A stretch of DNA of 64,000 nucleotides from Alcanivorax sp. GTDB taxonomy: Bacteria; Pseudomonadota; Gammaproteobacteria; Pseudomonadales; Alcanivoracaceae. This document shows positions 14,477 through 48,702 of the stretch, one piece after another. The DNA is taken from contig JAKUPL010000007.1 in the NCBI GenBank assembly GCA_022449455.1, forward strand, positions 1-64,000. The letters run 5' to 3'. How positions within the stretch are numbered: position 1 is the first letter of the stretch; every line of letters starts with the position of its first letter. The notes below the pieces were generated by a model that was not told the origin of the DNA, did no database searches, and saw only the letters and a program-made list of their open reading frames with translations. The translations under genes and the position numbers were made by a program.

Positions 14477-14553
14477 GATACAGGATTCAGGATGCAGGAT
14501 ACAGGCGGGTGGCATGGTGCCTTCCCTTCATCCTGTATCCTGCACCCTGTATC
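14477..14553. repeat. Inverted pair of 7-base repeat arrays between long FabG and fxsA
   Basis: Four in-phase 7-base units (GATACAG, GATTCAG, GATGCAG, GATACAG; 14477-14504) face four units in the opposite orientation (14526-14553; read from the right: GATACAG, GGTGCAG, GATACAG, GATGAAG). The two 28-base arms can pair at about 23 of 28 positions, with a 21-base loop. It lies just after the stop of the long FabG, so it would fold in that mRNA and may act as a terminator or 3' stabiliser. No T-run follows. Confidence 0.8.
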
Positions 14554-16210: not shown

Positions 16211-17497
16211 ATGCTGGCAGGCGACAACGCACGCAAGGTGGCCATTGTCGGTGGCAACCGCATTCCCTTTGCCCGTTCCAACACCGCCTACTTCGAGGTC
16301 GGCAACCAGGAAATGCTCACCGCCGCCTTGAACGGCCTGGTGGATCGTTTCAAACTCCACGGCGAACGGATGGGTGAAGTGGCCGCCGGCGCGGTGATGA
16401 AACACGCCAAGGACTTCAACCTGGTGCGCGAATGCGTGCTGGGCTCCAAGCTGGCGCCGGAAACGCCGGCCTACGACCTGCAGCAGGCCTGCGGTACCGG
16501 TTTGGAAGCGGCCATTCTGGTGGCCAACAAAATCGCCCTCGGCCAGATCGACTGCGCCGTGGCCGGCGGCGTGGACACCACCTCCGATGCCCCGCTGGGC
16601 GTTAACGAGCAGGCCCGCAAGATCTTCATGGAGATCAACCGCGCCAAGACCACCGGCGACAAGCTCAAGCAGGCGGTCAAGCTGATCAATCCCAAGCTGA
16701 TGATTCCGGACATTCCCAAGAACGGCGAGCCGCGCACCGGCTTGTCCATGGGCGAACACCAGGCGATCACCGCCGCCGAGTGGGGCATCAGCCGTGAAGC
16801 CCAGGACGAACTGGCCTGGCGTTCTCACCAGAACCTGGCCAAATCCTACGAGGAAGGCTGGCAACAGGATCTGATGACCCCGTTCCATGGATTGGAGCGC
16901 GACAACAACATGCGCGGCGACTCCACCATCGAGAAACTGAGCACCCTGAAGCCGGTGTTCGGTGGCGCCGACGGCACCATGACCGCCGCCAACTCCACGC
17001 CGCTCACCGACGGCGCCTCCGCGGTGCTGCTGGCCAGCGAGGAATGGGCCGAGCAGCGCGGGCTGCCGGTGCAGGCCTACATGACCCATTGCGAAGTGGC
17101 GGCGGTGGATTTCGTCGGCAAGAAGGAGGGGCTGCTGATGGCGCCCGCCTACGCGGTGCCGCGTATGCTGGACCGGGCCGGTCTGACCTTGCAGGACTTC
17201 GACTTCTACGAAATCCACGAGGCGTTCGCCTCCCAGGTGCTGAGCACCCTGAAGGCATGGACCGATGACACCTTCTGCAAGGAGCGTCTGGGCCGTGACC
17301 GCCCGCTGGGTGAAATCGACACCAGCAAGCTCAACGTGAAGGGCTCGTCCCTGGCCGCCGGCCACCCGTTCGCCGCCACCGGCGGCCGGATCCTGGCCAA
17401 CGCCGCCAAGCTGCTCAACCAGAAAGGCTCCGGCCGCTGCCTGATCTCGATCTGCGCCGCCGGCGGCCAGGGCGTGGTCGCCATCCTGGAAAAATAA
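16211..17497 (+). CDS. Acetyl-CoA C-acyltransferase (3-ketoacyl-CoA thiolase)
   Basis: 428 residues with all thiolase catalytic residues: Cys94 (QQACGTGLEA), His385 (GHPFAATGGR) and Cys415 (CAAGGQG). It would cleave 3-ketoacyl-CoA with CoA in beta-oxidation, or condense acyl-CoA units. Length and the extended insert near 195-215 resemble FadI-type thiolases. Start ATG 16211 has GGAGG nine bases upstream. It diverges from the long FabG reductase across 217 bases. No adjacent hydratase gene is present, so this is not a complete fadAB operon. Confidence 0.92.
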   Translation: MLAGDNARKVAIVGGNRIPFARSNTAYFEVGNQEMLTAALNGLVDRFKLHGERMGEVAAGAVMKHAKDFNLVRECVLGSKLAPETPAYDLQQACGTGLEAAILVANKIALGQIDCAVAGGVDTTSDAPLGVNEQARKIFMEINRAKTTGDKLKQAVKLINPKLMIPDIPKNGEPRTGLSMGEHQAITAAEWGISREAQDELAWRSHQNLAKSYEEGWQQDLMTPFHGLERDNNMRGDSTIEKLSTLKPVFGGADGTMTAANSTPLTDGASAVLLASEEWAEQRGLPVQAYMTHCEVAAVDFVGKKEGLLMAPAYAVPRMLDRAGLTLQDFDFYEIHEAFASQVLSTLKAWTDDTFCKERLGRDRPLGEIDTSKLNVKGSSLAAGHPFAATGGRILANAAKLLNQKGSGRCLISICAAGGQGVVAILEK

Positions 17498-17498
17498 C

Positions 17499-17592
17499 TT
17501 GAAAGTGAAAAGTTAAAAGGAGAAAGCGCGGGCACGGCCTTGCTGAAAAGGTGAGGCTCTGCGCCGCGTTTCAACTTTCAACTTTCAACTTT
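17499..17592. repeat. Inverted pair of 7-base repeat arrays between thiolase and tesB
   Basis: Left array (17499-17526): in-phase units TTGAAAG, TGAAAAG, TTAAAAG, GAGAAAG. Right array (17572-17592): three perfect CAACTTT units, the reverse complement of the same unit in another phase. Arms are 28 and 21-24 bases around a 45-base loop. It sits between convergent genes; the tesB stop codon and last Ser codon lie inside the right array. Likely a shared 3' hairpin. The layout matches the array pair at 14477-14553 although the repeat sequence differs. Confidence 0.75.
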
Positions 17593-48168: not shown

Positions 48169-48702
48169 TCAGGGCGCCAGATACAGTTCCACGGCACCCA
48201 GTTCCTGTTCGCCGTCGGCGCGCACCGTGGTGGCGTCGGTGACGGGCCAGTGGAACGGCAGCCGCACCACCTCGCGGCCGCCCACTTCGCGGGCCGCCTC
48301 CACCACCAGTTCGTAATCGCCCTTGGGCAGGTCGGCCAGGGCCGGCAGTTCGGAAAAGTCCACCGTGTGGGTGCCCGGTCGGCGGGTGGCGCCGGTCAGG
48401 CCGTCGTAGGGCGCGCTCTGGCCACGGCCGGTGCGGCGCCACCACAGGCGCAGATCCTTGAGCCATTTTTCCTGGTCGTCGTACCACAGCCCCAGCGGCG
48501 TCACCGCGCCGGAATCCGCCTGGCGGACCCAGAACGCCACATAGGGAGCGTGGTACTCGGCCACCTGCAGGCGCGGCACCTGCAATTCCACCTTGAACCC
48601 GGCGCCCCAGGCACCGGCGGTGAGGGCGCACAGGGCGGCGGCGATACCGAAACGCGTAATGGCGAAACGCATAATGGCGAAACGCATAACTCCTAAACGC
48701 AT
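48169..48702 (-). CDS. DUF2271-family secreted protein with repeated N-terminus
   Basis: 177 residues. The first 20 residues are four pentapeptide units M/T-R-L/F-G/A-V/I encoded by a 15-base tandem repeat, followed by a signal-peptide core (FGIAAALCALTAGAWG) and the DUF2271 domain (QVPRLQVAEYHAPYVAFWVR, LRLWWRRTGR, YELVVEAAREVGGREVVRLPFHWP). ATG 48702 has AAGGAG five bases upstream; two further in-frame ATGs lie in the repeat. Gene order PepSY-DUF2271-DUF4198 is a known iron-linked arrangement. Function unknown. Confidence 0.85.
   Translation of the reverse strand: MRLGVMRFAIMRFAITRFGIAAALCALTAGAWGAGFKVELQVPRLQVAEYHAPYVAFWVRQADSGAVTPLGLWYDDQEKWLKDLRLWWRRTGRGQSAPYDGLTGATRRPGTHTVDFSELPALADLPKGDYELVVEAAREVGGREVVRLPFHWPVTDATTVRADGEQELGAVELYLAP
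48643..48702 (-). repeat. 15-base tandem repeat at the start of the DUF2271 gene
   Basis: Four in-frame units of 15 bases begin at the start codon; units two and three are identical, one and four diverged. Each of the first three starts with ATG. Confidence 0.85.

Follow-up and report, generated by a model that had tools for sequence, protein, structure and literature searches.

The heptad array between a thiolase gene and a tesB-like gene of this Alcanivorax genome is probably a gene-less member of a group of dispersed elements in which two 28-bp arms, each made of four heptads, face each other. Fuller members of the group carry, between the arms, a gene for a four-helix-bundle protein of the IVP/S23 family (PF05635/TIGR02436). 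The known intervening sequences (IVSs) of 23S rRNA share this plan by architecture. The array was analyzed within a 64,000-nucleotide stretch of contig JAKUPL010000007.1 (here called the window), together with further stretches of the same genome and of other genomes.

The heptad array between the thiolase and tesB genes

The thiolase gene (PF00108/PF02803) occupies positions 16211 to 17497 of the plus strand, and its stop, the last base of which is 17497, abuts the left arm of the element (17498 to 17525), which consists of the four heptads CTTGAAA, GTGAAAA, GTTAAAA, and GGAGAAA. The GC-rich core of 43 bp that follows (17526 to 17568) is an imperfect palindrome and resembles the cores of other genomic copies. 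The right arm (17569 to 17592) contains three perfect copies of TTTCAAC (17569 to 17589) and a final TTT (17590 to 17592). An earlier note on this DNA had described a facing 7-base array at 17499 to 17592, with four units against three perfect inverted copies, and this description was confirmed with the start at 17498. The same note had placed the end of tesB in the right array. The tesB-like acyl-CoA thioesterase gene (PF02551), which lies on the minus strand from 18448 to 17585, indeed has both its stop codon (TGA) and its last sense codon (AGT) there, with the ORF terminus at 17585.

The element ends in an inverted repeat of heptamers about 28 bp long, as in IVS/IVP (S23) elements, with four units in the left arm and slightly more than three in the right. 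It holds the 43-bp core and no S23/IVP ORF between its arms, it is intergenic and outside any 23S rRNA gene, and it lacks a GTAG-tagged REP sequence. In our reading, this copy is related to mobile elements of the IVS/IVP type and carries no gene. Predicted RNA folding gave −42.9 and −39.3 kcal/mol for the two strands (z scores of −5.7 and −6.2).

An array with the same architecture and a different unit, also pointed out previously, was confirmed at 14477 to 14553. Its left arm (14477 to 14504) reads GATACAG, GATTCAG, GATGCAG, and GATACAG, its core (14505 to 14525) is 21 bp long, and its right arm (14526 to 14553) reads CTTCATC, CTGTATC, CTGCACC, and CTGTATC, a plan of four plus four GATNCAG units. 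Elsewhere in the window, the top-scoring tandem repeat listed is a 15-bp unit (CGAAACGCATAATGG) present in about three copies at 48647 to 48702.

Families of heptad elements and the period of 7

The array at 17498 to 17592 is one copy of family A, which is defined by two facing arms with GTTRAAA reading inward and a GC-rich core, and which most commonly has four heptads per arm (28 bp). The array at 14477 to 14553 belongs to family B, with the word GATNCAG. The earlier note had allowed that only these two loci might exist, but 63 A pairs and 21 B pairs were found in 491 kb of this genome (the fetched stretches and the window, with identical duplicates removed). Exactly four units in each arm were present in 39 of the 63 A pairs and 12 of the 21 B pairs, and the A cores ranged from 10 to 402 bp. 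Under the pairing rules used, a further 21 A runs and 51 B runs were partnerless and are outside these counts. A relative has a full element built from a third word, C (GCNNCAA), which by reading also occurs inside several A cores. Genome-wide, the two-unit A pattern had 228 matches and the B pattern had 169 at up to one mismatch, numbers that are not element counts because the matches overlap; a reversed-pattern control is invalid for these words, which are nearly identical when read backwards. Family A elements fit the traits of MITEs, namely, terminal inverted repeats, no transposase gene of their own, and dispersed copies. No gathering-score match to Rfam was obtained at eight loci.

A scan for facing four-unit arrays that was blind to the unit itself returned 73 pairs at period 7 in the 491 kb, which is not a genome-wide density since the stretches had been picked for A or B matches; it returned one pair at period 6 and none at period 5 or at periods 8 to 11. 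The same scan of Markov-shuffled copies returned one pair at period 5 and none at any other period, so that the period-7 arrays exceed what chance would give. The earlier suggestion that period and symmetry, and not sequence, are what is selected found no support in that form. Within a family the unit is restricted to a small set of words, and the diversity of words reflects the coexistence of several related element families.

An explanation of period 7 by stop codons in all three frames was tried and rejected. Inward arms had stops in 1.71 frames and outward arms in 1.12 (26 word clusters, P = 0.016), but arms with permuted columns already reached 1.52 and the B words are almost stop-free, so the idea covers the family A words at most. 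Compensatory pairing between the arms was likewise rejected, with symmetric positions matching slightly less often than under shuffled pairing (0.875 versus 0.887 in 39 A elements and 0.824 versus 0.854 in 12 B elements). The slightly sub-random complementarity of these four-plus-four elements in G000 could reflect loss of perfect palindromes or assembly bias.

Two further observations concern the G000 assembly. Six contigs (L052, L056, L070, L071, L078, and L084) break off shortly past an A arm, each running into either of two sequences starting TGGACTGGCCCC. These two probably mark opposite ends of a single insertion sequence that inserts into A elements and that we take to be IS3-like. In addition, the 5.7-kb contig C12 (L046) repeats elements of C4 (L038), with a tag match of 88%, which is either a real duplication or a mixture of strains in the assembly.

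Placement relative to genes and at equivalent sites in relatives

The 62 A pairs that could be placed (of 63) are all intergenic, with 34 between codirectional, 22 between convergent, and 6 between divergent genes. The 21 B pairs include 11 codirectional, 6 convergent, and 3 divergent cases and one within a gene call. The gene calls come from a codon-usage script of our own, with which the four window genes that were checked were recovered. Element-free gaps of at least 120 bp in the same stretches were codirectional in 47, convergent in 4, and divergent in 47 cases, and against this background, from which element-bearing gaps were left out by design, A elements showed a convergent excess (P = 2 × 10−7) and a divergent deficit (P = 3 × 10−7). 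When all neighbor pairs are counted, convergent pairs have an A element in 22 of 72 cases, codirectional pairs in 34 of 274, and divergent pairs in 6 of 69. The proposal that such arrays sit at gene 3′ ends was borne out, with A elements at a median distance of 5 bp from gene 3′ ends (n = 78) and of 59 bp from gene starts (n = 46).

At the tesB locus, the element is also present in five other Alloalcanivorax records (L001 to L005), its tesB-side arm having 3 or 4 units, and a strain comparison of the kind proposed in the earlier note revealed that both unit number and unit sequence vary between species. The core is almost unchanged in L002 to L005; L001 diverges within the far arm, near a contig end. 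In all five records the first heptad supplies the tesB stop codon, which is TGA, TAA, or TAG. By reading, L006 to L008 have a REP-like sequence in place of the element. At the 14.5-kb locus, where the window has a B element, L002 to L007 have C, a REP pair, REP, A, REP, and B, respectively, and no match was found in L008.

Twenty further sites were compared in up to 12 relatives (177 comparisons), with site classes assigned by regular expressions and an empty junction defined as one under 60 bp. Heptads were found in 69 comparisons, REPs without heptads in 33, empty junctions in 42, and neither in 33. Two or more words, the site's own included, occurred at 14 of the 20 sites, an empty relative at 10, and a REP in some relative at 18. 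Some sites, in relatives where they are empty, resemble the short junctions of operons. Across related species, equivalent sites are occupied by heptads (A, B, C, or E/F) or by REPs, or are empty. REP/REPIN-like sequences (GTAGGAGC) were observed in relatives at the 3′-end sites of heptad elements (the L083, L038, and L087 orthologues and the 14477 to 14553 locus). At L083:5671, nine relatives are without the insert, and the gene terminus, ...REARA-stop, overlaps the next gene (three checked by eye). In G000 and G006, the element recasts this gene end as ...KEVKS-stop, and in G009 the stop likewise comes from an element, one made of different heptads. No clear target site duplication was seen by eye among the filled and empty alignments listed. 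Judged from these site comparisons, the heptad arrays at shared sites are insertions that have been gained and lost, not ancestral spacers.

The hugging of stop codons, the excess between convergent genes, and the strong folding would suit arrays that are bidirectional terminators or protective 3′-end hairpins selected by the host, with heptads merely one stem design. At L038:9563, moreover, all 12 relatives read as having some palindrome, whether heptad, REP, or plain hairpin, and in Xanthomonas, transcripts are reported to start or stop more often at heptad repeats that form G4 structures than at control repeats (PMC4692102, section 15). We nevertheless regard this explanation as unlikely, since 42 of the 177 orthologous junctions are short and empty, the arms show no compensatory pairing, and a scan for consensus terminators (a GC stem followed at once by a T run) had no match at the array at 17498 to 17592 or at that at 14477 to 14553. 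It also leaves the link to a protein family and its word unexplained.

Simple tandem repeats produced by polymerase slippage could account for the slight variation in unit number at the tesB locus and for the longer one-way runs of heptads that are present in some genomes. Slippage is very improbable as an account of elements whose arms face each other and most often have exactly four units, whose cores are shared, and which are absent from some sites and linked to one protein family.

IVP genes between heptad arms

An intact ORF of 122 amino acids lies in the 402-bp core of the A element at L061 (2697 to 3154), on contig C23 of this genome. The product matches PF05635, 23S_rRNA_IVP (E value, 1.9 × 10−32), and TIGR02436, four helix bundle protein, and is kin in sequence to the solved protein 2gsc (E value, 2.9 × 10−16) and weakly to 2rld. 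This connection with IVP genes is invisible from the window alone. PF05635 genes were found in 12 of 13 genomes of the genus (18 genes), in 37 of 200 genomes of the phylum set, including G000 and G003, and in 12 of the 20 genomes behind other loci (11 of 13 deltaproteobacterial genomes and 1 of 7 others). None was found in 14 control genomes.

In total, 76 IVP loci were examined for arms, comprising all 18 from the genus, the best-scoring 28 from the phylum set, and the best-scoring 30 from the others. The 99% level of the null, obtained from 276 Markov and 300 unrelated positions, was an arm score of 2.02, and 2.4 was taken as the strong threshold. A facing period-7 pair around the IVP gene scored above the null at 59 of the 76 loci and above 2.4 at 50; the corresponding numbers were 15 and 14 of 18 in the genus, 27 and 21 of 28 in the phylum set, and 17 and 15 of 30 in the others. 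An off-centre control (n = 124) gave 5 and 1. The other periods have no null of their own, and by the period-7 thresholds they gave, among the 76 loci, 9 and 0 (period 5), 28 and 4 (period 6), 8 and 5 (period 8), 2 and 0 (period 9), and none (periods 10 and 11). The median inter-arm distance at the 50 strong loci was 407 bp. Arms above the null were absent at 17 of the 76 loci, 13 of which belong to the last set of 30. Heptad-flanked IVP genes occur in Pseudomonadota as well as in genomes of deltaproteobacteria.

Terminal inverted repeats, dispersed copies, and empty sites are also what ordinary miniature transposable elements would show if they were moved by some transposase or a RAYT-like enzyme, with the IVP gene as cargo or as another passenger, and REPs compete for the sites of heptad elements. 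This alternative appears improbable because, in the stretches examined, no gene other than IVP lies between the arms, such arms occur at 59 of 76 IVP loci, and the words go with the IVP lineages, as follows.

Words, protein lineages, and copy numbers

The 18 IVP genes of the genus fall into three lineages at 50% identity, which have the words A, B, and C, the words E and F, and two GC-rich words, respectively. The words were assigned by eye, and the GCGTGNN word of L153 to L155 was missed by the period-7 scan. No word is shared between lineages, and none of 20,000 shuffles was as good, a comparison uncorrected for relatedness. At one site, the interiors of F-type elements (G008, G009, G002, and G012) and E-type elements (G010, G007, G001, and G011) are on average 75% identical, versus 85% within a type, while their flanks are equally alike (88.6% and 87.0%); for G008 and G010, the flanks are 95% and the interiors 75% identical. 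At the SLC13/cysC site, the IVPs of elements with other words are 62 to 67% identical to that of G000, versus 85 to 92% for the neighboring genes. Between G006 and G009/G010, the C-armed genes at this site have interiors that are 73% alike, a level that some pairs with different words also reach. On the whole, the arms travel with the gene, and a single site is refilled by different elements.

GTAGGCA triplets occur in 7 of the 200 phylum genomes, all of them among the 37 that have PF05635 (Fisher's exact test, P = 4.5 × 10−6), although the test is weaker than its P value because five of the seven belong to one genus and the matches are partly IVP arms themselves. The three genomes richest in GTAGGCA carry GTAGGCA-armed IVP genes, and in G083, 8 of 13 matches are those arms. 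GAATGTT triplets have 745 matches in 1 of 20 genomes, and the IVP gene there has GAATGTT arms. F-type triplets (at most two mismatches) have 12 to 191 matches in the eight genus genomes with an E/F-armed IVP gene and 0, 0, 0, 0, and 9 in the five without one. In G004 and G006, there are 105 and 300 matches to the A word, yet none of the three IVP genes is A-armed. Genomes rich in a word often, but not always, also carry an IVP gene having that word.

One gene-less A element starts with the exact first 19 nucleotides of the IVP leader, and two others match 17 nucleotides of it at 94%. The majority of the 81 A and B cores have no match to the leader, and a search of these cores for IVP remnants gave nothing convincing. 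The putative descent from an IVP element thus rests on direct similarity for the few leader-matching copies and on architecture and word for the others.

Comparison with known systems

The known partner enzyme of REP/REPIN sequences is a RAYT, not IVP. Like the heptad elements, REP/REPINs are short dispersed palindromes near gene 3′ ends, and in relatives they were found at equivalent sites; they differ in having a GTAG-type head and no heptads.

A close published counterpart is the Coxiella burnetii 23S rRNA IVS, which, in the part of the report available, is 428 nucleotides long, carries an S23 ORF, has a terminal stem of 28 bp and tandem heptamers before the ORF (three GACAGAT and a degenerate fourth, GACAGAA) whose number varies among strains, and is cut by RNase III at the first repeat (PMC4990558). 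The 28-bp stem, the four heptamers, and the S23/IVP gene are shared with the heptad elements; the Coxiella IVS lies within 23S rRNA, whereas the window copy is intergenic and gene-less, and that part of the report describes heptamers for the Coxiella IVS only (PMC4990558). QMITE of Coxiella is, according to an excerpt, also a miniature inverted-repeat element, one copy of which supplies the C terminus of a gene, and QMITEs are hot spots for an IS; the excerpt mentions no heptamers (PMC5896051).

In Xanthomonas, as excerpted, GGGAATC heptamer repeats are intergenic, mostly have four units, form 70 to 75 facing pairs per genome, and lie near or overlap stop codons (PMC4692102). Family A shares the four units, the facing pairs, and the proximity to stop codons. 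The Xanthomonas repeats are discussed as possible G-quadruplexes, whereas G tracts are absent from the words of families A and B, and the excerpt makes no tie between GGGAATC repeats and IVP/S23 (PMC4692102). A GGGAATC-type word, as reported for Xanthomonas, flanks an apparently disrupted PF05635 gene (profile match to 1 to 64 of 106) in G166 (L197, 1420 to 1930), in a setting that reads as the accB/accC interval. The TAACTGA repeats of Beggiatoaceae are, in the portion of the source available, likewise abundant intergenic heptamers with one dominant word, but they are mostly direct repeats just upstream of start codons, with one inverted case (PMC4679880). Among the matches listed in open-access papers, none joined heptamers to a general S23/IVP element, and a literature search with the repeat letters listed no paper on such bacterial repeats.

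A possible mechanism and its significance

The IVP protein may recognize the stem of its own word, as RNA or as single-stranded DNA, and may promote the spread in trans of elements having matching arms. Gene-less copies would then multiply while a matching IVP is active and would be left behind once that IVP is lost. The window copy would now be passive, giving tesB its stop codon and forming a long hairpin at the 3′ end of both convergent transcripts, a hairpin that RNase III might cut, as published for the rRNA-borne IVS. Several observations run against a gene-less IVP-type element as the explanation: G004 and G006 are rich in A words without an A-armed IVP gene, 17 of 76 IVP loci have no arms above the null, period 6 appears at 28 of 76 loci at the lower threshold, most cores have no leader match, the C-armed interiors are 73% alike, and the symmetric units are uncompensated.

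More tentatively, IVP/S23 genes with facing four-heptad arms could be a widespread and unrecognized class of mobile elements. The IVP of each lineage would read its own word and would mobilize gene-less copies in trans via a hairpin intermediate that lands at gene 3′ ends, perhaps aided by the RNase III of the host and one of its polymerases or a reverse transcriptase. As its branches, this class would take in the classical rRNA IVSs, the GGGAATC repeats of Xanthomonas, and other heptamer arrays specific to particular genomes. If this is true, rRNA IVSs with S23 genes, genome-specific heptamer arrays, and the placement at stop codons would have one origin, and the S23/IVP proteins (solved relatives, 2gsc and, weakly, 2rld) would gain a testable partner in the heptad stem beside their own gene. 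The pairing of word and protein would be a natural recognition code that can be tested directly. The elements also show that inserted DNA supplies some gene ends and stop codons.
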